Shown here in pieces: positions 5,525 to 61,694 of a stretch of DNA of 64,000 bases. The notes under the pieces were generated by a model. The model saw nothing but the letters and a program-made list of their open reading frames with translations. It had not been told where the DNA came from and did no database searches. The stretch is from Malassezia japonica (taxonomy: Eukaryota; Basidiomycota; Malasseziomycetes; Malasseziales; Malasseziaceae). The position numbers were made by a program, and so were the translations under genes. Location of the stretch: the NCBI RefSeq assembly GCF_029542785.1, contig NC_083376.1:372001-436000 (forward strand). Reading direction: 5' to 3'. Every line of letters starts with the position of its first letter. Positions within the stretch are counted from its first letter, which is position 1.

Positions 5525-8028
5525 ATGACGCTGGGCGGGGGCGTCGCAACCGTCGCGCAGGCGCTGGACGAGCGCCTGCCGCAGATTCACGCTGGAGTGC
5601 ACGCTTCTAAGCCGCAGAATGTCGATCGGCTCGCGCCGCAGGATGCACTTGCGTGCGTCGAGCGCGAGGCGGCGTCGCTCGTCGACGCCCATCGCCAGGC
5701 GCGCGACGCGTGCGTCGCGGCAAAGGAGACGGACAGCACCGACGCGCCGGCACTGTACGAAGAGGCGCTGGCGGGTGTAGTGTGGGCCAAGGTGCACAAC
5801 TACCTCATGCAGGGCTCGGTAGAGCAGCTCGACGATCTCGTGGAGCGCTTCGACATAGCGCTGGCTTTGCAGCGGCTCGGTACGTCGCGCAACTAACGCA
5901 GGTGTCGCGGACCCTACGCTTCCTATGGCAGCTCTGGAAGACTGGATGGAGCGCTCGACGATCGCCGAGTGCATGGCGCTCTTTGACTATGCGGAATCGC
6001 GCGCGGCTTTCCTGACCGAGGTACGTCGTGCTCCTAACGCAGAATATGGCTGCCAATGGAGGCAAAGGACTGGTCCTTCTGCGGCTGTGTAACGAGCTGC
6101 TTCGTCGTCTGTCCAAGGCGCATCAGTCGCAAGCCGTCTTTGCGGGGCGCATCCTCACCTTTCTCTCCTCGCACTTTGCCATCGGCGAGCGGAGTGGTGT
6201 GAATCTCAAAGGCGAGTTCCACGTCGAGAATGCCACGTCCATCGAGGCTGTGGAAGTGCCGGAATCCATGGACGAGGACGACGCATCTGCCGAGGGCCAG
6301 GCATCCAACCCCCACTTTTATACCCTGTTTTGGAGCCTGCAGCAGTTCTTTGCGCGGCCTGTGCACCTCTTTGACCAGGCGACCGACACGCCTTGCGCCG
6401 AGGCCGTCGCTGCGATGCACCTCGGCGACGATGTGCGCGCCCCGATGAAGGCTTTCCAGCTCGCATCCGAATGTGTCCTCTCGGTGCTGCAACACTACAA
6501 CAAGGCAGAGGCACACCCGACGAGCGAGGCCAAGCTCGACACGTACAGCACCGAGGCGTTTTACCCCAAGTACCTCAGCGGCCGCCCGCTGCTGGCCTAT
6601 GAGCTGAGCGACATCTTGTTCCGCCGGCACATCCTCACGCAATTCCTCGTCCTCTTCCAGTTCCTCCTAGGATGCACTGCGACGAGCCGCGAAAAGAATG
6701 GGGGGTGGGCCAACAAGCTCCTCATTCCGCCCCACGAGCTGTCCGAAGCCGACGAAAAGTGGACGCGCCGCGCGTGGCGCCAAGTGCAGACGCAGCTGAA
6801 GGAGACCGGAAAGGACGGCCGCGAATTTCTGGGTACGGTCCTCGGCGTGCTCAAGCGCGAAAACAGCTGGATCCAGTGGAAGGGCGTTAGTGCGCCAGCA
6901 CTAGAGAAGGAGGCGCTGCCGCCGACCGACTCGGAGGCATGGGCCGAAAAGGCACACGCTGCTTTTTCGGCGCGCCTGGCTCAGTACCCTCACGCGCTGG
7001 GCACACCGGCGCTGAGCATGCTATGGGAGGACGGGTTCGTGCCGCAGGCGCCGTCGAGCGTCCAAGTGACCGACGAAGAGGGCAATCCCAAGACGCTCGC
7101 GACCGACGGTCTCGAGGAGCTCGAAATGCCGCCGATGCTGCCTTCTCTTACGTCGCTCAGTCGCTCGTTGCACATGGAAGAGCAGCGCGCGAAGCAGCGC
7201 CGCGCTGCGTTGGGCGACGAAATGGCGGACGAGGCAATGGCGCATATCCAGAATACCAAGCAGAGTCTTACCTGGCGCGCGCTGCGCAGTGCAGGCAATG
7301 CGCGCCTGCATTTGATGGCGCACATGAACGGCATCGACGATATTCCAGGTCTGCTGCAAGCTATCCACGACGAGGAGCAGAACGAGCCGTACGACGCGCC
7401 AATTCTGCGTGAAGCCAACGAGGCGGAAGAGAAGGCTCAGCGCGATGCCGAGGCGGAGGCCAAGGAGAAGGAGGAGAAGGAGCGGGAGGAGAAGGAAAAG
7501 GCCGAGAAAGAGGCCAAGGAGAAGGAAGAGAAGGAGAAGGCGGAGAAGGAGGCGAAGGAAGAGGCAGAAAAGGAGGGCGGGGAGGCCCAGGGCGAGGAGG
7601 ATGAGGCGGAGGCCGAGGATGTCGATGCCGATGCCGACGCCGATGCCGATGCCGACGCCGATGCTGATGCCGATGCCGACGCCGATGCCGATGCCGACGC
7701 CGACGCCGACGCTGATGCCGACACCAACACCGACAATGCACACGAGCACGACGACTCCCAGCCCACAAGCACCGAGCCTGCGACGTCGGCTGACCCGTCT
7801 GACACGGCCGATCCCTACGCTGATCACGATACCGATGACGAGGCCGGCGACGTCTCGCACATGCACGTCGACCACGAGACCTCGTCCGTGCATACGGCCG
7901 ACGAGCGCTCGGTGGACGAGACGCACGATGCGGACGCGACCTTTATGACCGCCCCCCACGCCGGCCGATCGAGCGATGTGGAATCCTCGCGCGAATCGAC
8001 GCCTGTTCCTCTACGGTCGGAAGCCTAG
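5525..8028 (+). CDS. THOC1: THO complex subunit 1 (Hpr1/THOC1)
   Basis: There are three exons (5525-5879, 5902-6020 and 6043-8028) with two 22-nt introns, for 819 residues. The segments LPMAALEDWMERSTIAECMALFDY, NGGKGLVLLRLCNELLRRLSK, GRILTFLSSHFAIGERSGVNL and HFYTLFWSLQQFF follow metazoan THOC1 closely. THO couples transcription elongation to mRNP export and suppresses R-loops in the nucleus. The C-terminal ~250 residues have diverged into a Lys/Glu-rich region (7420-7600) and an Asp-Ala dipeptide repeat (7620-7725). The stop TAG overlaps the stop of the convergent demethylase gene in a shared CTAG. Confidence 0.92.
7618..7725 (+). repeat. Hexamer-like microsatellite coding Asp-Ala repeats
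   Basis: Repeats of GCCGAC/GCCGATGCCGAC-type units encode about 17 consecutive Asp-Ala pairs inside the THOC1 tail. Unit variation is mostly GAC/GAT in the third codon position, which keeps the dipeptide while breaking nucleotide identity. Confidence 0.85.
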
Positions 8029-34823: not shown

Positions 34824-35822
34824 ATGGCGAACACGACAGTGCGCGGTGCGCTGACGATCCATGGCACCAATCCGCAGTTCCTGATCGAGCGCGTGGTGCG
34901 TGCGCGCATCTACGACTCGATGTACTGGAAGCAGGACTGCTTTGCGCTCACCGCCGAGTCGCTCGTCGACAAGGCCGCGGACCTGCAGTACGTGGGCGGC
35001 ACCTACGGCATGCTGCGCCCCAGCCCGTTCCTGTGCCTCGTCTGCAAGCTGCTCCAGATCCAGCCGGAGCGGGAGATTGTGCTCGAGTACCTCGCGGCCG
35101 AGGACCTCAAGTACTTGCGCGCACTCGCAGCCATGTACATCCGCATGACCTTTCCCGCGATCGAGGTGTTTGAGCTGCTCGAGCCGCTCCTGAATGACTA
35201 CCGAAAATTGCGGTACAGAGACACCGCGGGGCAGTACTCGCTCTCGCACATGGACGAGTTTGTGGACGACCTGCTAAAAGAGGAGCGCGTATGCGACTTG
35301 ATCCTGCCGCGCCTCACGCGCCGCAGCGTGCTCGAAGAAAACGAGGGACTGCGGCCACGTACGTCGCGCCTCGAGGATGCACTCGTTCTCGGCGACGCAC
35401 AGGGCCTTGACGAGGCGGACGATAGCGACGACAGCCTCGGCGCAGTTCGCCGCGAACGCGAAGCGCGGCGCGCACACGCGGACCAGACACGCGAGGCGCG
35501 GCGCAGACGCGAGGCCCATGCGCGGGGGTACGCGGTCGAAGAGGAGGAGTACGCGTCGCAGCAGTCGGAGGACGAGGAGGAGCGCCTCCGCGCGCTGTAT
35601 ATGCGCTCGCGCAGCGTGTCGCCTGATCGGGAAGATCGGGGGAGTGTGTCGCCCGATCGGAGTGTTTCGCCCGATCGCAGCATCTCGCCGGACCGCAGGA
35701 GTGTGTCGCCCGACCGCGCCATCTCGCCGGATCGGCGGAGCGTGTCGCCCGACCGTCGCAGTGTGTCGACCGACCGCGACATTTCGCCCGACCGCATGAG
35801 CATTTCGCCCGACCGTCAATAG
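34824..35822 (+). CDS. PRP38: Pre-mRNA-splicing factor 38
   Basis: This is a 332-residue protein. The PRP38 domain fills residues 1-~175: VRGALTIHGTNPQFLIERVV, YWKQDCFALTAESLVD, GGTYGMLRPSPFLCLVCKLL, and DYRKLRYRDTAGQYSLSHMD. Prp38 is a B-complex tri-snRNP protein needed for spliceosome activation. After a charged linker the C-terminus becomes a run of S-[V/I]-SPDR repeats (about 35,620-35,818), an SR-like tail. It is adjacent to and convergent with the Kip2-like kinesin gene. Confidence 0.92.
   Translation: MANTTVRGALTIHGTNPQFLIERVVRARIYDSMYWKQDCFALTAESLVDKAADLQYVGGTYGMLRPSPFLCLVCKLLQIQPEREIVLEYLAAEDLKYLRALAAMYIRMTFPAIEVFELLEPLLNDYRKLRYRDTAGQYSLSHMDEFVDDLLKEERVCDLILPRLTRRSVLEENEGLRPRTSRLEDALVLGDAQGLDEADDSDDSLGAVRREREARRAHADQTREARRRREAHARGYAVEEEEYASQQSEDEEERLRALYMRSRSVSPDREDRGSVSPDRSVSPDRSISPDRRSVSPDRAISPDRRSVSPDRRSVSTDRDISPDRMSISPDRQ
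35620..35818 (+). repeat. SVSPDR/SISPDR-coding repeat array in PRP38
   Basis: About a dozen hexapeptide units [S-(V/I)-S-P-D-R] are encoded by GTGTCGCCCGAC/CGG-type units. Every unit offers an SP phosphorylation site. Confidence 0.85.
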
Positions 35823-43795: not shown

Positions 43796-43934
43796 GAGGC
43801 ATGGGACCTGACCTAGTAGGCCCCCCAACATGCATGATGCATGCCAATGCGTCTGGGGTGAGATCGACATTGGGTTGCGGCACTGCGTCCACCTCCTCTT
43901 TGTCTGCCAAGGACGCGTGCGTGCGGGTGTGGAA

Positions 43935-46900
43935 ATGGATACCCGTAGCCATTACGAGGCGAGCGAGTCCGTGGCAGGTCCCCTGCCGACGACTGACGCC
44001 CTCGGCCTCGCCCCCGCCCTGACGCCGTCGGCATATAGCAGCTCCGTGCCCCGGTACGCCGATACGAGCGTGCCGAGTGCGCCGCAGACTCCGGCACATA
44101 CGCAGCTTACACCCCAACGCTCACCAGAATCGAATGCGCCGTCGCCGCGCGTGTACGATCGGACGGGCCAGGTGGGCATCGGCGAGCTGGCGACTCCCCG
44201 CTGGTTCCAACAAAGCGTACCTGGCGCGACCCAGCGCTCGCCACAGGCGGCCTCGCCGAGCCGCGCGCGCAACATACCCCCGGAATCGCTCCCGGGCACT
44301 GCGCAGCAGACCGCCGCACGCCACGCGCGCGCGATTTCCTACTCCATGACGCCGGGCCAGCCCCGCAGCGAGCCGCGGGCGTCGCTGCCGACCTTTGCCT
44401 CGATGCAGCAGCTGAGCGAGCTGGGCGTCGACGAGTCGTCGGACGCATTCTTTAGCAGGCCTCTGCAGGATACTTCCACCGCCTCGGCGCTGCCTACGCC
44501 AGGGCGGCGCGACGCGAGCGGGACGGGCCCTGCATCGCCACAAGCCCGCGCGCGCAACGCGCCGCTGGGCAGCATGCGCACGCCGGATACGCGCGCGGAC
44601 AAGGCACCGCAGCGCCGATCGAACCGCATCTCCTCGTCGTCGTTTGTGCCTGCGTTCCTGCGGGGAAACAGCGGCGACTCACAGAGCGCACGCAAGTTCC
44701 TGGGGCTCAGCTCGACAGACGTTCTGCGCAAGCTCGACGGGCTCAGCGTGTCGCCCCGCGGTCGCGACGTGCCGGAAAAGGAGGAGGGCGATCAGAGCAC
44801 ACAGTCGCTTCCCGCCCGCATGCTCTTTTCGTCGCCCAAGGACGGGAGCGACCCTTTTCGTGTGCACGACGCTGCGCGTGCGCCCAATGCGTCGAGCGCA
44901 GAGGGGAGCACGAGCACGCAGGGCCCAGGTGCCGCGCCGGACGTGCACCGGCCCACGCGTGCGAGCGTCCCGACGGTGCACAGTGTAGGAGCAGCGCCAA
45001 GTGTCGTGCCGAGTGCCGCGCCGAGCGCCGAGCCGAGCACCGCACCGAGCACCGAGGCGCCGAGCGCGCCGCCGAGCGAGCCCCACACGTCGTACGCGCC
45101 ATCGAGCGAGGCCCACACGTTGCACGCGCCGCTGAACGAGCCCCGCGCATCGCACCCACCCGCTCCTTTTCCTTCGGATGCGCCCTCATCTGGCGTGCCT
45201 GCTGCAGCCGATGTACCGCCCGCAGCTGCGCCCCTTTCTGCACCGCTCTCGTCGGCGCCGGATAGCCTCTCTCCCGTCGGCACGGCCGGCCACTCGGAAG
45301 AGGCGTTCCCCCCCCGCTCCCAGCTCGTCGACACGTCGCGATGGCCGCGGCTCGACTCGACGTATACCGACGCACGCCCCGATTCGGCCGTGCATGCGAC
45401 GGCCGTCGCACCAGACACGTCGGCGACTCTCCCTCGTTCTGCCGTGCACGCCACGGCGCCGCCCGAGCTCTCTGCGGACGAGCTCGGTGTGATTTCTGGC
45501 CCGACGCCTCGCGATACACGCCGCGACTCGCGTACCCTGCGCCGGAACCGCGCATCGATGCAGACAGAGCCCGGCGAGGAGGACGAGCCGAGCGGGAGCC
45601 TCGCTGGCCGCCTCTCGCGCCGCTCGCTCGTGGCGCTCGGCGCGCTGTTCAAGGCGAGCCCTCGGCGCTCGGACGATGCTCCGTCCGACACGCCTCCCAA
45701 GCCGCGCTCGCGCCTCTCGTTCCGGCGGCGGCGGCAGAGCATGCCGAGCAAGCCCGACGGACTTGACGCACCGGACGCCACGCCGGTGCAGTCGCCCCCC
45801 CCCACGCTCCCTCCGAAATCGACGCTGCGGCGGACCGAAGGCCAGGATAATGTGCCGCCCATGCGTCAGGAGCCGTCCGCGTACCACACTGCCAAAGCGC
45901 AAGGTAGTCGCATTCCCCGCGCATCCTCCATGATGCGCCTCCTCTCGCGCAAGACGCCGGTCGACGAGCCGCGGCAGACGCCGTCGCGCATTCCCCAGAG
46001 CACGTCGATGCAGTCGGTGCGCACGCAGGAGCACGAGCCGAGTCTCCCGTCGGCAAAGAGCACGCACAGCGTGCACCGTGCCGAAGGCGAGACGCCGCTC
46101 AAGGCGCTCGCTCGCGCCCGGCAGCGGCGCACGTCGCCGGTCAAAGAAGAGGCCGTCAAGGTGCGCACGCTCCGCAAAGGCCAAAATGCAGAGGCGGCCG
46201 ACGCGCTGCGCCGCCAGCGCGCCGCGGCCGCCAAGACGCAGGTCGAGCGCAAGACACCGTCCGAGCGCAAGCCTGTGCCGTCCCGCGAGGAGCCGCCGCT
46301 GCGCTGGAACGTGCGCAAGAGCGCAACGATGGCCGCGGCGCCAGCTGCGGCGGCCGCAGCGGCGGCGCCGGCCGCGGCGCCCGTGAGCCGCTCGCCGTCG
46401 GTGCGCTCCATGCCGCGCTCGACGAGCGTGCACTCGCGCCTCTCGTCGCGCACGGCCGTGCCCAGCGCGCCGTCGCCGATGAGCATGGCCGCGCTGCGTC
46501 TCGACGACGAAAAGAATGGCGACGCAGAGATGGAGCGCCACATTGCGCGTGTGCAGCAGCGCAAGCTCGCCGGCGGCGCGCGCCAGGACGAGCTCGACCA
46601 GCAGCTCGAGTTCCCCACGAGCGTCGCGCCGTCCAAGCGCTTGTCGCCGCGGCAGGCCGAAGTCATCTACGGCAACCACCTCTGTCCTTACGAAGTCCAA
46701 GAGCTGTACGAGTACGAGTCGATCTACTACGTTGGTTCTTTTGCACGACACAAGCACTATGCGACGCCGGATAAGCCGGATCGCAACTTTGGGTACGACG
46801 ACGAGCGCGGCGACTACGAGGTGAACCTGCGCGACCACCTCGCATTCCGCTACGAGATCGTCAAACTGCTGGGCCGCGGCTCGTTCGGGCAGGTCCTGCA

Positions 46901-47870
46901 GTGCAAGGACCACAAGACGGGCGAGCATGTGGCGATCAAACTCATCCGCAACAAGAAACGCTTCCACCATCAGGCGCTCGTCGAGGTGAAGATCATGGAG
47001 AGCCTGACCAAGTCGGATCTCGCGGGCGAGCACAACGTCGTGCACATGACCGACTCGTTCACCTTCCGCTCGCACCTGTGCGTCACGATGGAGCTGCTTA
47101 GTATCAATCTGTACGAGCTGATCAAGGCAAACAGCTTCGAGGGATTCTCGCTGCACTTGATCCGCCGCTTTGCGATGCAGACGCTCCAGTGCCTCGAGCT
47201 GATGCGCGCCGCACGCATCGTGCACTGCGATCTAAAGCCGGAAAACATCCTGCTCAAGCACCCGCGGCGCAGCGAGATCCGCGTGATCGACTATGGCTCG
47301 AGCTGCTACGAAAACGAAAAGGTGTATACGTACATCCAGTCGCGTTTCTACCGCTCGCCGGAAGTGATCCTCGGCATGGACTACAACATGGCGATCGACA
47401 TGTGGTCGCTCGGTTGCATCCTCGTCGAGCTGCACACGGGCTACCCCATCTTCCCGGGCGAGAACGAGCAGGACCAGTTGGCGTGCATGATGGAGGTCCT
47501 CGGCCTACCGGACCGGCACCTACTCGAAAAGAGCACGCGCCGCAAGCTGTTTTTCGACTCCACCGGCGCGCCGCGGCCCGTTGTCAACTCGCGGGGACAC
47601 AGGCGCAGGCCCAACAGCAAGACGCTGGCGTCTGCAGTGCGGTCGCGCGACGAACTGTTCCTCGACTTTATTGCGCAGTGCTTGGCATGGGACCCAGAAA
47701 AGCGGATTCGGGCAGACGCGGCATTGCAGCATCCATGGTTTACGCATCCGATCGATGCACAGGTATCCTCGGCCATTCCGCGCGCCCAGGCACCGCGGCG
47801 GCCGCGTGCGACCGATGCCAATGGCTCCCTTTTGCCGCGTGCATCACTGCCGCCGGCCGCTGCGACATAG
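43935..47870 (+). CDS. DYRK-family protein kinase (Pom1/DYRK2 type)
   Basis: This is a 1311-residue protein. About 900 residues of Ser/Pro/Ala-rich disordered sequence precede a NAPA-like module (LSPRQAEVIYGNHLCPYEVQ, ESIYYVG) and the DYRK-homology/kinase region: DHLAFRYEIVKLLGRGSFGQV (near 978), HCDLKPENILL (near 1095), activation loop YTYIQSRFYRSPEVILGMDY, and CMGC insert. The YxY autophosphorylation site and NAPA module place it with class-2 DYRKs such as Pom1, which control polarity and cell-cycle entry. The frame is also open from an ATG at 43830, adding a Cys-rich 35 residues with no conserved look. Confidence 0.87.
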   Translation: MDTRSHYEASESVAGPLPTTDALGLAPALTPSAYSSSVPRYADTSVPSAPQTPAHTQLTPQRSPESNAPSPRVYDRTGQVGIGELATPRWFQQSVPGATQRSPQAASPSRARNIPPESLPGTAQQTAARHARAISYSMTPGQPRSEPRASLPTFASMQQLSELGVDESSDAFFSRPLQDTSTASALPTPGRRDASGTGPASPQARARNAPLGSMRTPDTRADKAPQRRSNRISSSSFVPAFLRGNSGDSQSARKFLGLSSTDVLRKLDGLSVSPRGRDVPEKEEGDQSTQSLPARMLFSSPKDGSDPFRVHDAARAPNASSAEGSTSTQGPGAAPDVHRPTRASVPTVHSVGAAPSVVPSAAPSAEPSTAPSTEAPSAPPSEPHTSYAPSSEAHTLHAPLNEPRASHPPAPFPSDAPSSGVPAAADVPPAAAPLSAPLSSAPDSLSPVGTAGHSEEAFPPRSQLVDTSRWPRLDSTYTDARPDSAVHATAVAPDTSATLPRSAVHATAPPELSADELGVISGPTPRDTRRDSRTLRRNRASMQTEPGEEDEPSGSLAGRLSRRSLVALGALFKASPRRSDDAPSDTPPKPRSRLSFRRRRQSMPSKPDGLDAPDATPVQSPPPTLPPKSTLRRTEGQDNVPPMRQEPSAYHTAKAQGSRIPRASSMMRLLSRKTPVDEPRQTPSRIPQSTSMQSVRTQEHEPSLPSAKSTHSVHRAEGETPLKALARARQRRTSPVKEEAVKVRTLRKGQNAEAADALRRQRAAAAKTQVERKTPSERKPVPSREEPPLRWNVRKSATMAAAPAAAAAAAAPAAAPVSRSPSVRSMPRSTSVHSRLSSRTAVPSAPSPMSMAALRLDDEKNGDAEMERHIARVQQRKLAGGARQDELDQQLEFPTSVAPSKRLSPRQAEVIYGNHLCPYEVQELYEYESIYYVGSFARHKHYATPDKPDRNFGYDDERGDYEVNLRDHLAFRYEIVKLLGRGSFGQVLQCKDHKTGEHVAIKLIRNKKRFHHQALVEVKIMESLTKSDLAGEHNVVHMTDSFTFRSHLCVTMELLSINLYELIKANSFEGFSLHLIRRFAMQTLQCLELMRAARIVHCDLKPENILLKHPRRSEIRVIDYGSSCYENEKVYTYIQSRFYRSPEVILGMDYNMAIDMWSLGCILVELHTGYPIFPGENEQDQLACMMEVLGLPDRHLLEKSTRRKLFFDSTGAPRPVVNSRGHRRRPNSKTLASAVRSRDELFLDFIAQCLAWDPEKRIRADAALQHPWFTHPIDAQVSSAIPRAQAPRRPRATDANGSLLPRASLPPAAAT

Positions 47871-48204: not shown

Positions 48205-48627
48205 CACCCTTGCATGCATGACCAGCTATGCTGGCATACTGGGGCCAGCGATGAAATAAAGTTATCACCACATATATCATCGCGGAACCACACGCCACGG
48301 TCAGTCGCCACGTGGGCAGTATTGAGATGAGACTCTGACACAGTCAGGAGGGATTGTGCAGCAGAGGCGCGCGTGCCGGAAAATTTCAAAACTGAATAGC
48401 CGGATATGGAACTGCTTGTGGCTGTGCTCAGGGGAATGCTACTGCTGTGTTGTTTTTCTACTGTCTTTACTAGGCCCTTGTATACTGGCCAAGTACCTGC
48501 CTGGCAATGCTACGGTCTCCCGAACTCGAATTGTGGATCGCCAACGCTCTGAAAAGTTTACGATTGGTATGAAACAGTGAGATTCAGGAAAATAGTGGCG
48601 CAACCTCGTTTTGGGATCCATGGTGTA
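48205..48627 (+). repeat. Left inverted repeat arm of the island
   Basis: About 423 bp that reads, on the + strand, like the reverse complement of 57655-58086. Shared landmarks are CACCCTTGCATGC at the outer end; CAGTCGCCACGTGGGCAGTA; AATAGCCGGATATGGAACT; CTGCCTGGCAATGCTACGGT; and TTTTGGGATCCATGGTGTA at the inner end. Identity looks to be about 80% by eye. Confidence 0.85.
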
Positions 48628-49428: not shown

Positions 49429-50384
49429 CTACCCATCGCTACGCTTAGGCGGGTCATAGATAAAGACATAGTTAGGACGTTCATCCTCTTCATCCTCTTC
49501 GTCGTACTCGTCATCGTCGTCCACCGCACGCTTGGTGCTCTTGACGTCGTGGTCAACGTCATCGTCATCACTGCCATCATCCTCGTCCTCGTCTTCGTCC
49601 TCATCCCAAGGACGAATCTCGACACGATAGTCTAGGGCTCCAAAAATATCCTTGTCGGATCCACGGCATTCAAGCATTTTGTCGATCCAGCAAAGGTCCA
49701 GGTACTCGTCTGATATGAGCAGTGCAACGTACCACGCGGCGGGAGAGACTTGATGTACTCGGGAGTCGGCCAAAACACGTTGCCAAGCTCCGTCTTGAGC
49801 TCGTCGCTGATCGGCACGACCTTGCTGAGCTGGTCAATGTCCTCCTTCGTGGGCTTTTTAAAGCAGCTAACACTGTTCTGTTAGTACGGCTGAGGGCTCA
49901 TGATAACATACATCTTGAACACACGTTCCCAATCCCATCCAAGCTTTTCCCTGACAGCCGTTCGGAACGTATCCTCACTGTAGACAACCATGTTCAGTTT
50001 AAAAATGGCGCTAAGCTGATCAATGTTGGGGATGTACTCAAACTTGATGGTGATGAATGGATCATCCATCCATAGCTCACAGAGGAACTCACGGTAACTC
50101 TCATACTTGCTGGAACATCCCGGAATGCTGATCAGCTCGTTTGGACATTCAGCCGATGGGTTGGTAACAGCAGCCGCAGGAGAGGTGTCCGCAAGAGCCG
50201 CTTGGTTGAGACTGGTTTTGCTTGAGGGCGAAGCAGGAATAACATTAGCAGGCCGAGAGGACTTGGCCGAGCGTGGGGAGAGGATAGACGGAGTATCATG
50301 TTTCAGCAAATGCGAATGCTTTCGCGGGTCGTCCATGCCAAAAGCAGGCGACGAATTGTTACGCATCAGTGCAGGGGCAGCCAT
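49429..50384 (-). CDS. Island gene A: divergent cyanase-like protein
   Basis: Three exons give about 295 residues: 50384-49912, then from 49866 (or 49872) to 49733, then 49709-49429. An Ala/Ser/Pro-rich N-terminal ~90 residues is followed by a helix-turn-helix part (FRTAVREKLGWDWERVFK, then CFKKPTKEDIDQLSKVVPIS). The linker is ELGNVFWPTPEYIKSLPPRD and the C-terminal block is DIFGALDYRVEI. Order and spacing follow fungal cyanases ('YGQ.KPT.EDI..LS.VL.I', 'LPP.DP', 'GIMSAIDF..DV'). An acidic insertion (about 35 Asp/Glu) interrupts the last strands before RPNYVFIYDPPK. The Ser of GIMSAIDF is Gly here. A TATATAT lies 45 bp upstream. Family assignment is my inference by motif. Confidence 0.6.
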
Positions 50385-50744
50385 TGTGGTGGTAGAGAGT
50401 GGGGTAGAGGAAACGACTTTCTGCAACTTATATATGTTTGTATTTCGGTGGCTGACGACGGGATACACCGCCACGTATACACCGATCCCGTGGCTGTACC
50501 ATGTTGAATGTCTACCTTCCGCATACGTGCGCAAAAGGCACCGCAGCGCTCCACACAAGTGCTCCCCAGCTGGCCGTAGTATTTAATTTCTGGTGGGGAG
50601 CCAATGGAGCGCGGAAGTTAATATGCACAGGCCACTACTGCAGCAGCACTGCAGAGCATAGAGTGTACTGTTTTTAGAGAACCATCTACATAAATAACGC
50701 CCCGCCTCTATCCCCCTTCATCTCTTTCACCTCTTACACCCATC
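50385..50744. promoter_or_regulatory. Divergent promoter of island genes A and B
   Basis: This 360-bp gap between the two starts contains TATATAT at 50429-50435 (45 bp from gene A) and ACATAAATA at 50688-50696 (50 bp from gene B). Similar spacing on both sides suggests TATA-type promoters. I see no coding content. Confidence 0.5.
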
Positions 50745-51884
50745 ATGTCGGTAGTGAATGACCCTGCGATTGACCTTGGCAAGACTCTTGTCCAATCTCT
50801 GCGTACGAGTGGCCTATCGTATGATGAGTCTGTTGCTCGTTCTCGTCAAGCGGGTATTGAACAATGGAGTTTTGAACGAATGTATGTCAAGTTTGTTTGA
50901 TCTAATCTGTCAGCTGGACTGATTCTAAGCGTCCCTCTCCGAAGGAGGCCGAGATTATCTTGCAGACCTTTGGTGTTCACTTGGACAAACGAGCCACTTG
51001 TTGCATGCTGGAAGAAGTGTACGAGAGGAGGGATTCCTACAGGCCCAAACAGCTAGGTATGTCTCTTTACTGACCAAGACAATCACGCTCACATTCTCCT
51101 GGGCGCCTTGGGCGACAATAGTGTCACTATTGCCAAACGGGTGAATGATTTCCTAGGGGAAAACTCTCGAGTTGACCACAACAGCTGGTCTTGCAAAACC
51201 ACGCGTCCCAACAAGGTCAAATTCACCTTCAGCGCCCATATGCATCGGTCCAGGGAAACACGAGCCCCTGTCCCTGATGCCGTCAAGAAAGAGTACGCGT
51301 ACCTCAGCGCGATGAAGACGATCAGTGGAGTATGTGCTCTGATTCGCAAGCGCATGAGCGAGAGCAACATGTCCAGTACCGCGCTAGCAGCCAAGCTGAG
51401 TCTCTCTGAAAAGGAAGCGAGTAGCATGTGAGTATCCATACGCAATCAGTCGCTGACCTCTCAGCGTCTATGGCGCTACGGTGCCAAACTTCTTGGTTAT
51501 CTGTCTTCTCGTTGATATCTTCAACCTGCACAAAGACGGAGACTTTATCAAACTCGTAATCAAACGGTGCGCCGATGTGGATCAGAACTCGGGTCGCCGA
51601 GGCTTTTACAGTATGTGGTCTCGCTGACGAGTAGATCCAGCGGTGATCAGTCTCCGTAACTATGTGAAGAAGCATCCGTATCAAGCCACTCTCCCAATTT
51701 ATCGCTGCAATGTACGTTCAGTCCATTACTTCCATGCTAATACCAGACCGAGAACGTCACTCTCCGAGAGGACCTCTTTACCTGCGAGCGCCCCAAGAAG
51801 GACCGCAAGGACTACAGGGTGTTTCATCTCCCCGTGACCATGAGCTGTACCTGCAACAGCACTATTCCTGTACCTGATGTCTAA
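50745..51884 (+). CDS. Island gene B: tandem two-module cyanase-like protein
   Basis: Six exons (50745-50881, 50914-51056, 51079-51427, 51465-51610, 51635-51711 and 51747-51884; introns 32, 22, 37, 24 and 35 nt) give 329 residues. Module 1 (~10-170) has LGKTLVQSLRTSGLSYDESV, KRPSPKEAEIILQTFGVHLD, and HILLGALGDNSVTIAKRVND. Module 2 (~185-329) has ALIRKRMSESNMSSTALAAK, LSLSEKEASSIVYGATVP, and NPAVISLRNYVKKHPYQATL. Each module parallels a whole cyanase (HTH bundle, then C-terminal strands), so the protein looks like a fused dimer. The catalytic Arg/Glu/Ser positions are not kept. No start-proximal targeting signal is visible. Confidence 0.6.
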
Positions 51885-52569
51885 TCAGGACCAATGTATC
51901 CAGTCTAAGGAGCCCTAGCTGTCTCATTGGCTCTCTCTTCACGATACGGCGCCCGCCCTCCAATGGACTGCTGCACTGTTCGTTGCCAGGCAGCAAGCCA
52001 CGGCTGGTGTTATGCGTTGCAATAGTGATCCCCCTACCCCCGATAGTTATTATATCTTGCGATATTATTCTCTCTTGCTCCTGAGCCATACGTGTGTAGA
52101 TGGGCCTCGGCACTATGTGTCGCAAGCATACAAGCACGTTGACTGTCCATTGCCCTGCAAGGCTGTATTGGATACTTACCGAGCCAGGTTGAAGCCAAGT
52201 TCCTTTCATTGCATTGTACAAGTCGCTATTTCGTTCAAAAGTGGGCTGATTCAAACGCTTAGACAAGGGGTGTGCGCCGTACAGCGACAATACTGCACTG
52301 TCCTTGCGACAGGGGCGTGGAGGTTGTGGTGATGTAAGCGTGTGGAGCCATGTCGCTGCCGTTCAGCTGTACCAACTGCGCGGACGTCAAGTCAGGTCGT
52401 GACCCAAGCGTAATCTGAAATCCCGGCTACATACCACTACGACAAAATACATATCCAAAACCTTGCTTGAGCTAGTTCAATAGAGAGGTGAGACAAATCC
52501 AATAGTCATTCCATTCTCCCAAGACCTAAGCGAGGCACCCGGCCCCCCTCCACGTAGGTCATTGGTCCG
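51885..52569. other. Gap between convergent island genes B and C
   Basis: 685 bp with no supportable gene. Frames on both strands lack family motifs. Confidence 0.5.
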
Positions 52570-53637
52570 TTAGACTTGAAAGCTGTCCGAACGAGTGATC
52601 GAGCTTCCGGAGTAGACCAGCTTGATGTACACATAGTAGGAGGTCGATTGGCCAGGGATACGGCGAAGGTCGACTTCAAGGCTGTAGAAGTCCATACCGT
52701 GAGTGCCACCAGCCTTAGCCGTCTGAGCAATCGTTTCGGAGAAGTCGTTGATGATCGCGCGAAGACGAGCCATGGCGGGGTCTGAGTGAGTATGAGTGAC
52801 GTACGGCAGAAAGCCTCGAGGCACGTCGGGCTCAAGGCATAGGCGCTCTTGAGGTGGTGCAGCACCAGCTCCTTGTCCTTTCCTGGCTTCAGGACATTGA
52901 TCAGCTTGAACGCCACGAAAGCACACTGATAGCATCCATGCTTGAGGCTGGCGTTAGTTTACGCTGCTCTCGGCTGGTACGTACACTGCCTCGACATCGG
53001 CGGGGGCCACTCGAATCTCCTCGGCAAGGTCGGCGATGGTACGACCCTGTGCCTCCATGGCGCGGTTCATGGCGTCGATGAGATGGTAGACAGAGTTTGT
53101 CCACATCACCAATGCAGCCTCCTTGACCATCTCGGCTTCCTGGGAAACATGACTTTCGCTGCTGTCGTCCAAGTTGTGGACAGCGGATTCTCCCAGGTAG
53201 GAAACGAGGCGCAGCTCCAGTTCCTCCGAGTTGGACTTGCTAACCTTTAGCTTGCTCTGGTCCCAGCAAGGTGTGTCCCAGCTAGCAAGAGTCTCGTTCG
53301 AGCCGGACCCATCGGCATGCTTCTTCATCAGCATGTCAAGGATCATGGGGCCCTTGATGAGGAGAGAAACGTGCAAGGCGTTGACAATGCGACGTCCACT
53401 CACTTTGCATTGCTCATTCCACTGGGGAGTGGGCAGGGACCCGGTCACAACGTCGGCATGATACTTGAAAATGTCAACGACCTATTGGGCCGAGAGTTCG
53501 ATAGGCACAACGCCCATTATCCTCCTCAGTTCCGCGGGGTTTGGGATTAACTTTCCCTTTGTCATATCGCTCAGACCCGTCCTAGTCATCTGGAGCTGAG
53601 CGGCCAACACAGAGCCACTAGTCGGCAGACTACTCAT
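52570..53637 (-). CDS. Island gene C: two-module cyanase-like protein with in-frame TAG
   Basis: Exons 53637-52985, 52947-52805 and 52781-52570 (introns 37 and 23 nt) give about 335 codons. Module 1: VLAAQLQMTRTGLSDMTKGK, then LIPNPAELRRIMGVVPIELS. Module 2: HLIDAMNRAMEAQGRTIADL, AEEIRVAPADVEAV, HPAMARLRAIINDFSETI, and GMDFYSLEVDLRRIPG. The last two segments resemble the cyanase C-terminal 'DP..YR.YE' and 'GI.SAI.F..DV' blocks. A TAG at 53482-53484 interrupts module 1 in frame. Either a 27-nt GT-AG intron (53482-53508) removes it, or the gene is decaying. The 5' end collides with an inverted fragment of another family member. Confidence 0.5.
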
Positions 53638-53671
53638 GGCATCGGCCTCCGCTCGTTTGCGAAGTGCCTCT

Positions 53672-53857
53672 CTCGCTACTCTTCCACCGCGTGGTACGTT
53701 GTCATAATGTGGACTAACCACAGACCCCGTCAAGGATAAGAAATTTGAGGAGGTGATGCGCTTGAATATCTGCACTGGGAAGGGTGTAGTTGCCACTCTC
53801 GACCACCCCGTCGACGAAAATGGATATCCTCTCCAGTCTGAATCGTACTCTGCTTGA
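53672..53857 (+). pseudogene. Orphan 3' fragment of an E-like island gene
   Basis: On the + strand, LATLPPR, a 30-nt intron (53694-53723) and then DPVKDKKFEEVMRLNICTGK ... HPVDENGYPLQSESYSA-stop copy the 3' end of gene E (LATLPPR, 30-nt intron, DPVKDKKWEDAM ... HPVDENGYPL-stop), in inverted orientation. Nothing upstream continues the gene, so this is a truncated duplicate that preserves even the intron. Confidence 0.7.
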
Positions 53858-53963
53858 CATTGCGACCGTTCCAATGAAGCAAGTAAGCGATACTATCGCC
53901 CACGTATACCACATTGTTGCGCGACCGAGGTCGCATGTGTACCTTGGCTACGGGAATACTCCA

Positions 53964-55156
53964 TTACGTCAGGCCAAAGACAATTTGGATCTTCTCCTCC
54001 TTCACATTGGCATGACACTCAAAGGTGCTCTTCTCCAAATGAACGGTCATACCCTGGCGCTCGAGCTTGCTGATATCGTCCAAGATATAGCAGCTCGTGT
54101 TCTTCAGGTACAGGCGTAGGTCGATCATAACAGGTTCTGGTCATGAGCGAGACAAACATACCACAGTAGCTCGCAGCGGTCGAGGAATGCAGCGTGTCGT
54201 ACTCCTTGGCCAGGATAAAGTGAAAAAACTCCGGGGAGCGAGTGAGTCCAACAAAATCAATGATCTTGCGGGCCTGCTCGGCATTGGGCTTTACCTGTCC
54301 AGCAAGGCTGACCCGTTAATATGCATCCAAAAATGGTCGAGTACCTACATCAGCGTCATTGTCTCGAAGTCCATCTGGAGCTCATTGGCCGTCTGTTCAA
54401 AGGATGTGCCCTTCTTGATGAGACAGAACCGCATCATCTGGCACATGAAGTGAACCGAGAGCTGAGCATCGAAGGCTTCATACTCAGTCAGTGCCATGGT
54501 GCGGCGCTGAGCATCGCGCTCGTCATCAGCAGGACCATTCATCTGGGGATCTACCAGTGGTGCCTCCAAGATGAGCATCGTGGTAAGGCTTTGCCAGTCC
54601 ACTTTTTCGACTTGGTACGAGCAGCTCGTAAAGTCGATGCAGAATGCCCCGCCCAACTGGCGTCAGGAATCTACTCCGGTCTGGGACGTACCGTGCGGTT
54701 CAGCTGGCTCATGATCCCAGTAGAGTTCATGAAAAGATCATTGAGGACACAACTTTCGAGACGATCTTTGTTAGCAAGCATACGTACTCGTCGGAATCAC
54801 TTGGTTTGGCAAAGCAGAACCCCTACGGTTAAACTCGTCCATCCAGAAGGTGACGAGGACATCCGTGGGCAAGCGGACGTTGAAGGTTGATGCAACAGAG
54901 CTGACAAGATTTAGGGTGGGTTTGCATTCTCCTGAAATTCTGCTTGGTTAAAAACCACACGCTTGTTTTATGCGTACAGAGTGGCGACTTGATCGCGATC
55001 AGTGCTCGGAATAGGCACGCTGCTCGACTGTCGATTCTCAATGGCGCCATTCACCTCTCGAAAGAAGGCATCAACTACCTGGCGTACAGGCCTGTTACTC
55101 GTGATCAAAGCGTCCGTCAGCTGAGGAGCAGAGTCGTCATTCGTAATGGGTGTCAT
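53964..55156 (-). CDS. Island gene D: tandem two-module cyanase-like protein
   Basis: Six exons (55156-54978, 54900-54788, 54765-54692, 54656-54349, 54307-54162 and 54136-53964; introns 77, 22, 35, 41 and 25 nt) give 330 residues. Module 2 is the clearest cyanase match in the island: MRFCLIKKGTSFEQTANELQ, METMTLILAGQVKPNAEQAR-like MDFETMTLILAGQVKPNAEQ, ARKIIDFVGL, then EPVMIDLRLYLKNTS and KEEKIQIVFGLT. Module 1 keeps the C-terminal block GAFCIDFTSCSYQVEKVDW. In cyanases the GQ.KP turn follows the HTH and DPV..R..E starts the C-terminal domain. Here Arg and Glu of that motif are Asp and Leu. Confidence 0.62.
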
Positions 55157-55285
55157 GGTTTCGATGAGGTGGTGAGACAAATGTGGGTGGAGCACCTATT
55201 AGTGAGTTGTTCTGAGCAAGCAATGTCCATAGTTTTGTGGCTGTGCAATCGAGAAACGATCTTAGAACTAAGACTACGACACAGA

Positions 55286-56716
55286 CTAGAGAGGATATCC
55301 GTTTTCGTCGACAGGATGACTGAGAACAGCAAAGAGACCCTTTCCGGAAATAAGAGAACCTTGCATCGCATCCTCCCACTTCTTATCCTTGACAGGGTCT
55401 GTAATTAGTCCACACTAGGGCAACGTACCACGCGGCGGAAGAGTAGCAAGGTACTCAGGCGTCGGCCAGAACAAGTTGCCAAGCTCCGTCTTGAGCTCGT
55501 CGCTGAGCGGCACTACCGAGGAAAGCGCCTCAATTTCCTCCTTCGTAAACTTGGAGTAGATCCCATAGCTGAACGATTAGAGCCATAACACGCAGGTGGT
55601 AACGTACGCATTGCAAATCACGGCACCGTAGCGTCCAAGTTGCCTGCCCATTGAAAAAATGTCACCAGTAGCAGTAATTGCACAGGATACTTTCTTGAAT
55701 GCCGCTAGTTCCTCGATAGTGGGTATGTACTGGCGATACTTTGTGGGATCTTGACCATATGAGATTCCCATAGACGAGTACCACGCAAGACGACTAGTCT
55801 TGCCTTCCGCTTCCACACTAGTCTTGACATGAGCGTACTCGGTCGATGAAACCTTTCGACTGAGTCCCTCAGACGTTGAAGGAGCACAGTAGATATTGTC
55901 GTAGGAAAATCCCTTGTTAGGGATATGAGTCCTGTTTCCCATGTGCTTAAACACAAAAGTCGAAAACCCCTTCCGACATGTCGGTACCCTTTTGCTCGGC
56001 TGGTACTGAAAGATACCAGGTTTGCTTTCCTCCCGATTGGAGCGCATCGATCGACGTGAGTTGAGTGGTTCGACGAATCCAACTTTCTTTGGACGACGTT
56101 CAGGAGAGTCAGAGTCAGATACGCTAGTGACCGACACGGATGAGGCAGACACGGGCGAGGACTTGGACGAGACCAACTCGGGAGGAGACGACGTAGGCGT
56201 ACGGGACTTTGAATCAGAAGCTTTACGAGGCGTTCCAGGGTGGCGAGGGGTGCTTGTACGCTTGATGTGGGGCGCCGTGGTTGAAGCAGCCTTGGGGCGG
56301 GTATCGGCGCATGATGTGGCAGGGACAGGAGCGGAGAGAGTATTGTCGGTAGGAGCGACGTCGATAGCAGTATTGGTAGGAGAGGTGGTAGGGGCGTCAT
56401 TAGCAGCCGCATCCGGGATACCCATGACAGCTACCGAAGCATGTCCCTCCGTGTCATCGCCATGGCTTGCATCGGCAGGGTCACTTTCCAAGTAGACCAC
56501 ACCTGCCTCGCCCTCCCCAGCTGCGGGAGGCTCCGCAGCGTCACCATTCGTAATGCTCGGCACGGTAGAGCCGGCCCGGTCAAGCATCATACCGAAGGTG
56601 AGTACGTGGCTAGCCAGGGCACGGAGAGCCCTCTTTAGACAGCGGTCTAGTCCAAGAAAACTGGTGGCAAATCCATAGCCAGTACGTGCACTAACCGATT
56701 GAACCACAGGTTGCAT
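55286..56716 (-). CDS. Island gene E: cyanase-like protein with long disordered N-terminus
   Basis: Exons 56716-55608, 55568-55429 and 55398-55286 (introns 39 and 30 nt) give 453 residues. About 300 residues of Thr/Ser/Pro-rich sequence precede a C-terminal module: IPTIEELAAFKKVSCAITA, FSMGRQLGRYGAVICNAYGI, YSKFTKEEIEALSSVVPLSD, ELGNLFWPTPEYLATLPPRD, and PVKDKKWEDAMQG. LGR..V...YG...T.EEIE.LS.V and LPPRDPV...WE follow the cyanase HTH and linker; the Glu of the catalytic DP...R..E motif is kept but Arg is Lys. The C-terminal domain is short (ends HPVDENGYPL). A TATATA lies about 50 bp upstream (56765-56770). Confidence 0.6.
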
Positions 56717-57654: not shown

Positions 57655-58086
57655 TACACCATGGATCCCAAAATGAAGTTGCACCACCTGGCTCTTGTAT
57701 CTCTGTTTTATACCAATCGTACGTTTTGATAACATTGGCGAGCCACAATCCGAGTTCGGGAGACCGTAGCATTGCCAGGCAGGTGCTTGGCCAGTATACA
57801 AGGCCCTAATAAAGACAGTATAAAAACACCACAGCAGTACCATTCCCCTAGACACAGCCACAAGTAGTTCCATATCCGGCTATTCCGTTTTGGAATTTTC
57901 TGGCACGCGCGTCTCTGCTGCACAGTCCCTCCAGACTGTGTCGGTGTCTCATCCCACTCACTACTGCCCACGTGGCGACTGGCCGTGATGGGTGGTTCCG
58001 CGTTAATTTATGTGGAGGCGATGGAATATTATGTCGGAATCGCTAGCCTCCCCATGCCTGTATAGAGGGGCCGGCATGCAAGGGTG
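57655..58086 (-). repeat. Right inverted repeat arm of the island
   Basis: Reverse-complement partner of 48205-48627. Both arms keep an open frame with the peptides NSRIWN.LWLC and LSLLGPCILAK.LPGNATVS, without an ATG in a shared position. Confidence 0.85.
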
Positions 58087-58435: not shown

Positions 58436-61400
58436 CTAAACGAGGTACTGGTTCAGGCCGTACTGAGCGACCTTCTCCGGTGCTTGTGTGTTGAGCTGCG
58501 CCAAGAAAGCACAGAGCTGGCCACGCAGCTGGCCGCCCAGCACGTCCTCCTCGCTGCTCAGGACGTGGTGGAAGAGCTGGAGGATGGTATCCAGGTACTG
58601 CATGCCCACCGTGTTGTTCGTCTGCACGAGCTGCACCAAGCAGAGGAGTACTGGCGTCCACTCTGCGAGGTCATTGTCGAGCGGCAGCGACGAAAAGAGG
58701 ATCGGCAGCGCCTGGTCCAGCGGCACGGCGTCCGGCTTTTTCATGATCATGCGCGCAAGGCAGCCACAGGCGTTGTCGCGGGCCGTCTTGACCTCGTCCG
58801 CCTCGTCGCTGCTCTTCTCAAACAGCGGCTGGAGGGCAGTGAGGAGAGAGGTGTAGTGCTGCGAGAGGTCCAGCTCGCTGTTCTCGATCAGCACGCCCGC
58901 AGCAAACGCCGAGTTGGAGCGCACCGACGGCTCCTCGTCCACGAGCGAGCGCGAGAGGAGCGCGAGGATATCTTGGGTAAACGGCGTGATGGCGCCCTTC
59001 ATGCCCACAATCACCTCGCCCAGCGAGCCGACGGCCGTCGCGCGGTCGCTCTGCGAGCGGCCCGGCGAGTAGTACTTGGCGATCTGCGGGAGGAACTGCT
59101 GGAGGGGACCAGCAAAGTCGCTGCCGAGCACGTTGGCCATTGCGCCCACGAGATCCGTAGCAGCGCTGATGAGCACCGACTCGTACTCGCTGACCTCCTC
59201 CGTGTCCTCCTCGTCGCCCGCCTCCGGGTCGATCTGCGACGGGGCCTTCTTTTCGAGGATGAGGAGCGTGTAGGTGCACGTCACCTCGAGCCAGTCCGGT
59301 GCGATGATCGCCGGTCCGCACTTGTTCAGGCACGTCGCCAGCGACTGGCAGATCTCGATCGCAGCCGTGCGGTCGTCTTCGGCCTCCCATGCCTCCATAA
59401 TGTTGGGGATGATGAGCTGCACGATGTTCTGCACGTCTGCGTTGAGCGGCACCTTGACGGCGACGCCCGGCACCCACGGCTGCGGGTTGCTCAGGTCGTA
59501 GAGCGTGTTAATAAAGGTGAAGAGCGTGGCGATCGCGCTCTTGCGGATGCCCTGGTAAAAGTGCGAGGTGAGCGGGATGAGCTCCTCGGTCGCCTGCGCG
59601 ACGTACGGCAAAAAGGCCGAGCGCGTGTGGTTAAAGAGTTCGCCGAGCGAGTCGGCCGCGACCTCCTTCTCGACAGCGACCGCGGTGCTGACGTTGAGGA
59701 AAGCGTCGTTGAACTCCTCGAGGTCGACAAAGTCCTCGTCGTTCTCGTCCTCGCCCGGGACGGTCATGCCGGTGATGGTCCCGTCGCCCGGCGCGCCAGG
59801 GATCGGGTCGTGCTCCGACTGCTGGAACGAGGCGATCATCTTGGGCACGATGTGCTCCAGGTACGGCCCGAACTCGTCGCCAAACACGCGCGACATGACT
59901 GCAAAGAAGATGAAAGCGCACTCGCGGATGCGCGGCTGGTCCATCTCGAGCGACTCGACGGTGATCTTCATCATCTCGGGCAGGTACGGGCGGAAGTGTT
60001 CCTTGCCGACCGCCTCGGCAAAGGTGCCGATCGTGTCTGTAGCAATGCCACGCAAATCCATCTCCTCGCCCTCCTCCTTGAGCTGCAGGAAAGGCTGGAT
60101 GCGTTGCATGAGCGGCACAAAGTAAGGCACAAAGTTGGCCTTGGCGGCGTGCGCCGCGCTGCCAATCGCGCCCGTGATGGTCGCCTTGACGGCGATCGGC
60201 GCCGTGTCGAGCAGGCCCGTGAGGCGCTCCATGATCGCGGGCAGGTACTGCGCAATGTCGTCGCCCATCACCTCGAGCAGCGCGTCGAGGGCCGTGCACG
60301 CCTGGCGCTGCGTCTCGGACGCATTGATCAGCTCCATGATCAGCGGCAGGAACGTGGCGTGCTTCGCCGCGCACTCCTCGTCCAGCATCTCACACAGGCA
60401 GCCGAGCGTGATGCAGGCCGCCTTGCGCACCACCGGCTCCGGGTCGCGCATGCCGTTCTCGACAAAAGGCCAGAGCTCGTCCATGTGCGGGCGGATGTAC
60501 TCGGAGCATCCCTCGACGCTCACGCCAAAGGCCATCATCGCCGCCTTGCGGTGCATCGGGTCGGCGTTGGTCGCGTACGCTTGCACCTGCTCCAGGAGCG
60601 GCGGGAAGACGTGGCTCGGGGGGAGCTCGGTGGCGAGTATATCGATCACGCGCAGCGCGAGGCGTGCGGGCGTGTCCTCCTCGATGTCGTCCGACTCCTC
60701 CTCGGTCGCGATCGGCATGAGCTGCTCGAGCAGCGGCTTGGCGAGGCCGAGGCTCTGCACGCGCGAGCGCTTGTACTGGATCGTCCACACGAGCGAGTTG
60801 AGGCACATCAGACGCAGCTCCTCCTCGTGGTCGCGGTTCGCGCTGTTGCGCACAAAGAAGGCCATCAGCTCTGCGAGGTGCGTCGCGAGGATCGGTGTCT
60901 CGAGCATGCACAGGTTCTCAAACACATCGAGGATCTGGCGCACGCCCTCGTTGTGCGAGGTGTCGAGGCACTGCTGCAGGATCTCGACCATCTGCGGCAC
61001 GGCGCTCTGCATTGCCGCGAGGTCCGCCTGGTCCTCTGTCTCGAGGTTCTCGGCGACCTTGCCGAGGGCACGCACGGTGGTGATGCGCACCTCGAGCGAC
61101 TCGGGGTCCTGCAGGCTCTTGGCAAAGAGGCTCATGATGCGCGGCAGGTGCGACTTGAGTGCGTCGCCGCCGTCGACAAAGGTCTCGAGCACGATGAACA
61201 GCACGAGGATCGCAGCCTGGCGCTGCGCCGCGTTGGGCGACTCGGCAGACTCAAAGAGCCACGGGAGCAGCGCAGGCCACGCATTGTGCGGCAGCTCCTT
61301 GCGCGCGATCTCGGCAATGACACGCGCGAGGCCATTGCGCAGCAGCGCGCTCTCCTCGCGTGCGATCTGCTCGAGGAGGCGCGACTTGATGTTGTCGCGC

Positions 61401-61694
61401 ACCTCGACGCTGTGCTTCGTCCAGACCTTGGTGCTCTTGGCGAGCTTCTTGCGCATCTCAACGCCGGCCAGCTGACGCACAGCGAGGTCGGGCGAGGTGG
61501 CCATGATCTCAAAGAGCGCAGGCACCGCACTGGCATTCTTGAGGTAGCGCGACTGGAGCGCTTCCGTGGCCTGCGTTAGTCGCGATACATACCGCCTTGA
61601 CGGTCGCCGTGTCAGGCACATTGGCCTGCTGAAGCAGTCCGTGCAATTCCTGCACGTAGGCGGGCTGGGTAAGTCATTGTCTACGCACGTCCAT
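58436..61694 (-). CDS. KAP123: Importin Kap123 (karyopherin beta, importin-4 type)
   Basis: The first coding exon is 6 nt (ATGGAC). Introns 61665-61688 (24 nt) and 61571-61592 (22 nt) then join to a 3135-nt exon, for 1070 residues. The spliced start MDPAYVQELHGLLQQANVPD, then TEALQSRYLKNASAVPALFE, is the Kap123-type opening. The whole protein is HEAT repeats (AVRQLAGVEMRKKLAKSTKV; RKAAMMAFGVSVEGCSEYI). An acidic loop GEDENDEDFVDLEEF lies mid-protein. It imports ribosomal proteins and histones H3/H4 through nuclear pores. Confidence 0.9.

Follow-up and report, generated by a model that had tools for sequence, protein, structure and literature searches.

A cluster of five genes in Malassezia japonica appears to descend from a fungal cyanase, a conserved enzyme that usually consists of one small module, and to have lost the active site of its ancestor. 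The genes, here called A to E, lie between positions 49429 and 56716 (stop of A to start of E) of the window, the whole 64-kb stretch of contig C7 that was analyzed, from 372001 to 436000, in a genome of 8.43 Mb and 9 contigs. Both the cyanase ancestry of these genes and their loss of catalytic function are well supported; the explanation as a whole, that is, five fast-diverging descendants of fungal cyanase with a dead active site, is one we hold with moderate confidence. The case for descent is built on intron places and phases that match those of the native cyanase gene, on alignment to a cyanase profile anchored at the intron points (7/7 modules), and on a profile-profile match of the second module of gene D (P = 6.3e-8); together they uphold the family link that the initial annotation had drawn from motifs. 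Its five clustered genes are also confirmed, with the refinement that B and D contain two cyanase-like modules each, C probably two, and A and E one. Features that the annotation did not include are the doubling of modules, a catalytic triad that is no longer complete, the surrounding inverted repeats, the low guanine-plus-cytosine (GC) content, the breakage of gene C and the relatives in metagenomes.

The native cyanase is encoded on contig C6 (C6:249507-249721, two exons) and provides the only PF02560 match in a six-frame search of the genome. Once spliced, it matches PF02560 with E = 6.7e-34 as well as solved cyanases, 1dw9 among them, and scores 17.7 against PF21291, under the cut-off of 27.1. 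Its three introns, of 22–23 nucleotides (nt), are in phases 2, 1 and 0, and are located respectively after the helix-turn-helix, at PPE|D and before FGDGIMSAID. The gene itself is located on the margin of a stretch of 2.5 kb with 44–48% GC (C6:246500-249000).

All 16 introns of the island genes fall at these three places, with matching phases and order: seven at the first (phase 2), seven at the second (phase 1) and two at the third (phase 0). The spacing between successive places is also similar, at 140–152 nt in the island versus 137 nt in the native gene, and 71–74 versus 74 nt. Since the island modules are paralogs of one another, the 16 agreements are not independent.

Genes A, C, D and E are on the minus strand and B is on the plus strand. 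Gene A (49429..50384; 297 amino acids; exons 50384-49912, 49872-49733 and 49709-49429) consists of an N-terminal part followed by one cyanase-like module and an acidic tail. Gene B (50745..51884; 327 amino acids; exons 50745-50881, 50914-51056, 51079-51427, 51465-51610, 51641-51711 and 51747-51884) and gene D (53964..55156; 343 amino acids; exons 55156-54978, 54939-54788, 54765-54692, 54656-54349, 54307-54162 and 54136-53964) carry two modules each. Gene E (55286..56716; 453 amino acids; exons 56716-55608, 55568-55429 and 55398-55286) joins an N-terminal part of 326 residues, 33% of which are Ser, Thr or Pro, to one short module. Gene C (52570..53637; exons 53637-52985, 52947-52805 and 52781-52570), which probably carries two modules, is a broken copy: its start is lost and its first module contains one in-frame stop, while the second module is complete. 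An intron spanning this stop was considered and rejected because it would have a poor donor and would remove a stretch resembling A and E; the stop is thus taken as a lesion. The shared motifs that had been reported for A, C, D and E were recovered in their places after splicing, namely, in order, IVSCFKKPTKEDIDQLSKVV, FWPTPEYIKSLPPRD and DIFGALDYRVEI in gene A, YSKFTKEEIEALSSVV and FWPTPEYLATLPPRD in gene E, LILAGQVKPNAEQ in gene D and GMDFYSLEVDLRRI in gene C.

The island introns are 22–41 nt long, and in 15 of the 16 a search of 25 nt finds a single position at which a GTRNGT donor preserves the reading frame; intron D1 has the donor GTACGC. Non-consensus in-frame GT-AG pairs are possible at several of them, and at introns A1 (6 nt), B4 and B5 the acceptor could be shifted by a few codons in frame. 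The deposited protein MJAP1_003720 (P0002 in our searches; 276 residues; window 53964-56716) shares with our splice models the second intron of E and the fourth and fifth introns of D. A total of 262 of its 276 residues are covered by 8-residue words of the six-frame translation of the window, and the other 14 are at or near splice joins. It combines segments of E with segments of D and leaves out exons, and is therefore a poor model of either gene.

For the anchored test, intron points served as anchors for aligning each module to an 11-sequence profile that combined the native cyanase with ten bacterial ones from plasmid records, and scores were compared to those of 150 shuffles within segments. 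All seven modules scored above all 150 shuffles, with total z values of 3.9 (A), 5.5 (E), 5.0 (B module 1), 3.9 (B module 2), 6.6 (C module 2), 3.5 (D module 1) and 7.9 (D module 2), that is, between 3.5 and 7.9. With the ten bacterial cyanases only, z ranged from 2.8 to 7.7 and six of the seven modules surpassed every shuffle, B module 2 being reached by 1/150. Taken alone, the C-terminal segment (segment 3) of B module 1 had a z value of 4.3, and that of C module 2 one of 4.7. D module 2 can also be recognized in the absence of anchors, with 18.1 bits and 0/1000 shuffles as high, and its hhalign comparison to cyanase yielded P = 6.3e-8 at a probability of 94.7. The cyanase model PRK02866 of NCBIfam, which was run on A to D, also covered D module 2, with E = 0.039.

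The first module of gene C has no introns and was outside the anchored test, and it is not significant alone in the unanchored one. It resembles the linker of A and has a helix-turn-helix (HTH) match to HTH_3 (E = 3.1e-4, below the cut-off), and hhalign matched the C family to B module 2 (P = 1.9e-4); on these grounds we take it as a probable cyanase-like module. B module 2 also matched HTH_3 below threshold (E = 4.7e-4, 20.6 bits, cut-off 23).

Several results weigh against descent from cyanase. In the anchored test, single segments can fail: the first for D module 1 and A (77/150 and 32/150 shuffles as high), the second for C module 2 (57/150), and the third for D module 1, B module 2 and D module 2 (38/150, 23/150 and 16/150). 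Without anchors the similarity is convincing in one of eight modules, D module 2; out of 1000 shuffles, the scores were reached by 32 for A, 7 for E, 54 for B module 1, 3 for B module 2, 25 for C module 2 and 165 for C module 1, and D module 1 obtained no score. Hhalign P values were weak for B module 2 (0.0023), C module 2 (0.0068), E (0.046), D module 1 (0.053), A (0.18) and B module 1 (0.31), as well as for the C and B families (0.018 and 0.023). PF02560 matches, which had been expected in most copies, were found in none of the five spliced proteins at E up to 10, and the same scan, in which E was represented by its last 195 residues, gave no PF21291 row. No cyanase call above cut-off was obtained from Pfam (ten unspliced frames, the five spliced proteins and ten further frames) or from NCBIfam. 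The anticipated fold match in most copies did not materialize either, the two AlphaFold2 models being too poor, with a mean predicted local distance difference test (pLDDT) score of 36.7 for P0002 alone and 44.5 for P0003, a metagenomic relative of gene C, with three relatives. Foldseek, run on the poor P0002 model, returned 319 matches, all with E above 0.001, and the best 50 of these are mainly XRE-type helix-turn-helix proteins, with no cyanase among them.

The catalytic residues of cyanase, which we take to be Arg96, Glu99 and Ser122 in the E. coli enzyme, are not conserved together. In the anchored alignment, in which the seven modules are 17–25% identical to native cyanase, the Arg-Glu-Ser triad is complete in none of them, and single residues are kept in some. 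Single positions in such alignments are uncertain, and it is the joint loss of the triad that appears robust. As this active site is not kept, the island proteins should not degrade cyanate, and they are very probably non-catalytic. Compared to cyanases (CynS, Cyn1; PF21291 plus PF02560), the island genes thus share the domain order, the three intron places and phases and the profile similarity detected with anchors, but differ in their low identity, in the lack of a complete triad, in being clustered between inverted repeats, in the two modules of B, D and probably C, and in the additional acidic (A) or Ser/Thr/Pro-rich (E) parts.

The five genes lie inside a low-GC island, with a GC fraction of 0.50–0.53 across 48–58 kb of the window versus 0.57–0.71 elsewhere in it. 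Their GC content at third codon positions (GC3) is 0.53–0.70, versus 0.75 for the native cyanase and 0.81–0.89 for five other genes of the window. Inverted repeats enclose genes A to E in a segment of approximately 9.7 kb; the left arm (48268..48627, plus strand, with weaker fringes to ~48205 and ~48635) and the right arm (57655..58015, minus strand) were identified by blastn of one flank against the other, which aligned 365 columns at 86% identity, and by a repeat search. With the left arm as query, the genome gave two matches, both at the island, and no third copy. Farther out, two convergent frames flank the island, encoding a kinase (43830-47870) and an importin-like protein (58436-61621), both identified by reading of the sequence.

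Relatives were sought among 5.8 billion proteins using as queries A, C and an alignment that paired one exon of B with one of D. Among the 8000 candidates sharing most words, A retrieved one relative (56% identity over 54% of the query) in addition to P0002. Gene C has four relatives (P0003–P0006; 66–93% identity), which are intact, unlike the island copy. The B and D alignment gave eight rows, six of B type (58–82%) and two of D type, namely P0015 (61%) and P0011, which repeats the window itself. All six B-type relatives share their last codon with the window frame, and this codon is at the donor. The A-, B-, C- and D-type relatives, at 56–93% identity, are metagenomic, and their frames are open over the parts seen; their records list ena or lgn as the source, and that of P0011 lists none. 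P0005 (C type) and P0012 (B type) are each reported from a single contig of 3729 bases, and B and C are therefore probably neighbours there as well. Scans of viral contigs with P0003 and of genome contigs with an alignment of gene C gave 3 and 40 stretches that fit the pattern, none of which is a relative.

Within M. japonica, genome searches in which A, B, D, the second module of C and the module of E served as queries retrieved the island and one relic on contig C5, counts that are lower bounds. The relic (about C5:680372-680551, minus strand; also delimited as C5:680372-680533) is a decayed module of A/E type, 44% identical over ~54 residues (E = 4.8e-7) and with stops around it, within a stretch of ~2 kb of 40–46% GC that has ordinary genes on either side. 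Two tandem genes that read as phosphoesterase-type adjoin it, at L013:6561-8948 (L013 being C5:675500-685400), and are 73% identical over 300 nt.

The cluster also carries signs of rearrangement. A piece of the 3' portion of gene E (53672..53851, plus strand), detected through repeats of 88 nt (85%) and 75 nt (77%) and by translation, lies in inverted orientation where gene C has lost its 5' end; the C relatives have the start. Among these relatives, P0003 and P0004 agree at 43/71 positions over the first HTH and linker, versus 32/32 before and 148/150 after; the gene C of the window agrees with P0003 at 69/70 over the first HTH and linker and at 132/150 after. This mosaic looks like cassette exchange over the first helix-turn-helix, a reading weakened by the fact that we chose its borders with the alignment already in view and that metagenome proteins may be assembly chimeras.

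In the explanation we favour, duplication of a fungal cyanase gene would have yielded the five genes, with internal tandem doubling in B, D and probably C. The copies retain the exon layout of cyanase and the order of its domains, from helix-turn-helix bundle through linker to C-terminal domain. Cyanase assembles into rings through both domains. The island proteins, which we presume are made, may retain this habit, and could serve as non-catalytic assembly or binding modules, whether singly, among themselves or together with the native cyanase; doubled dead modules, together with the acidic tail of A and the Ser/Thr/Pro-rich front of E, could bind to DNA, to one another or to the native enzyme. 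That they function in recognition or regulation is conjecture. Fast change, a first HTH that is swapped between relatives of gene C, and the private nature of the island suggest, tentatively and with the odds somewhat against it, a part in recognition or genetic conflict. A more specific version, in which dead double-module proteins form mixed rings whose fit is set by swappable HTH cassettes, with versions maintained as at compatibility loci, is doubtful.

The main rival to a role in recognition or conflict is decay, in which a burst of cyanase duplication in a low-recombination pocket left debris that now drifts without function. Gene C is broken, which fits decay, a leftover inverted fragment of E lies beside it, the C5 relic is surrounded by stops, and GC3 in the island genes is below that of the five neighbours. 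Rough ratios of nonsynonymous to synonymous substitution rates (dN/dS) are 0.69 for exon 2 of A versus E (0.56 without the first ten codons), which also favours debris, and 0.31 for the E tail versus its inverted copy; these values do not settle function versus decay. However, A, B, D and E hold long frames across 2–5 tiny introns with good splice sites, and neutral debris would hardly be expected to show the open frames seen in A-, B-, C- and D-type relatives as distant as 56–93% identity. We consider decay unlikely, yet worth keeping in view.

The inverted repeats could alternatively be the ends of a transposon, with the cyanase-like genes as cargo or as replication or control genes. The repeats around a lower-GC segment and the presence of a relic on another contig would agree with a mobile element. 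In contrast to a DNA transposon, no transposase or recombinase match was found in the 20 frames (part of the island frames) and five island proteins scanned, the repeats were not found elsewhere in the genome, no target-site duplication was seen by eye in the flanks, and the 9.9 kb around the C5 relic contain no inverted repeat; a mobile origin is thus improbable.

That the genes encode helix-turn-helix regulators of the XRE or MBF1 kind that merely resemble cyanase is very unlikely. XRE/Cro-CI proteins, including MBF1, share with them a helix-turn-helix bundle, and the sub-threshold HTH_3 matches of B module 2 and C module 1 and the weak Foldseek rows (best 50 of 319) point in that direction; this reading leaves unexplained the shared intron places and phases and the cyanase-like C-terminal part. 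Working, divergent cyanases would account for the family descent, but with no complete triad in any of seven modules and a normal cyanase already in the genome, this can be dismissed almost with certainty.

Two kinds of locus were set aside. The likeness to basidiomycete mating-type loci (STE3; homeodomain pair) is limited to diverged versions in a private island and is an analogy only: the Pfam scan gave no receptor or homeodomain match in the island proteins, STE3 is on C3, and homeobox matches are on C1, C3, C5 and C6, with none on C7. As regards centromeres, PMC7025860 predicts nine GC troughs for M. japonica, in line with the nine contigs of this genome, and describes M. sympodialis centromere cores that average 78% AT in less than 1 kb; the island resembles such troughs in having GC below its surroundings, but is longer (10 kb) and less AT-rich (47–50%) than these cores.

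The window contains two further tandem repeats, a six-base repeat encoding a long Asp-Ala run inside a 660-amino-acid frame (7618-7734), and one encoding SVSPDR-type repeats at the end of a 332-amino-acid frame that reads as splicing-factor-like (35641-35817). A bacterial promoter scan gave 6 sites versus 8.7 in shuffles, and the bacterial model is uninformative for a fungus.

A search of titles and abstract openings of open-licence literature gave no cyanase paralog cluster and no mention of this locus, a weak negative as subscription papers were outside its scope. The deposited gene model fuses parts of two genes here, and the locus shows how the phase of introns can demonstrate ancestry that profile searches miss. 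If our explanation is correct, it would show a housekeeping enzyme turned into something else, its fold doubled, its active site stripped and its sequence diversified almost past recognition while the intron places remained fixed, and the five diverged paralogs, together with their metagenome versions, would provide material for asking what the new role is for.

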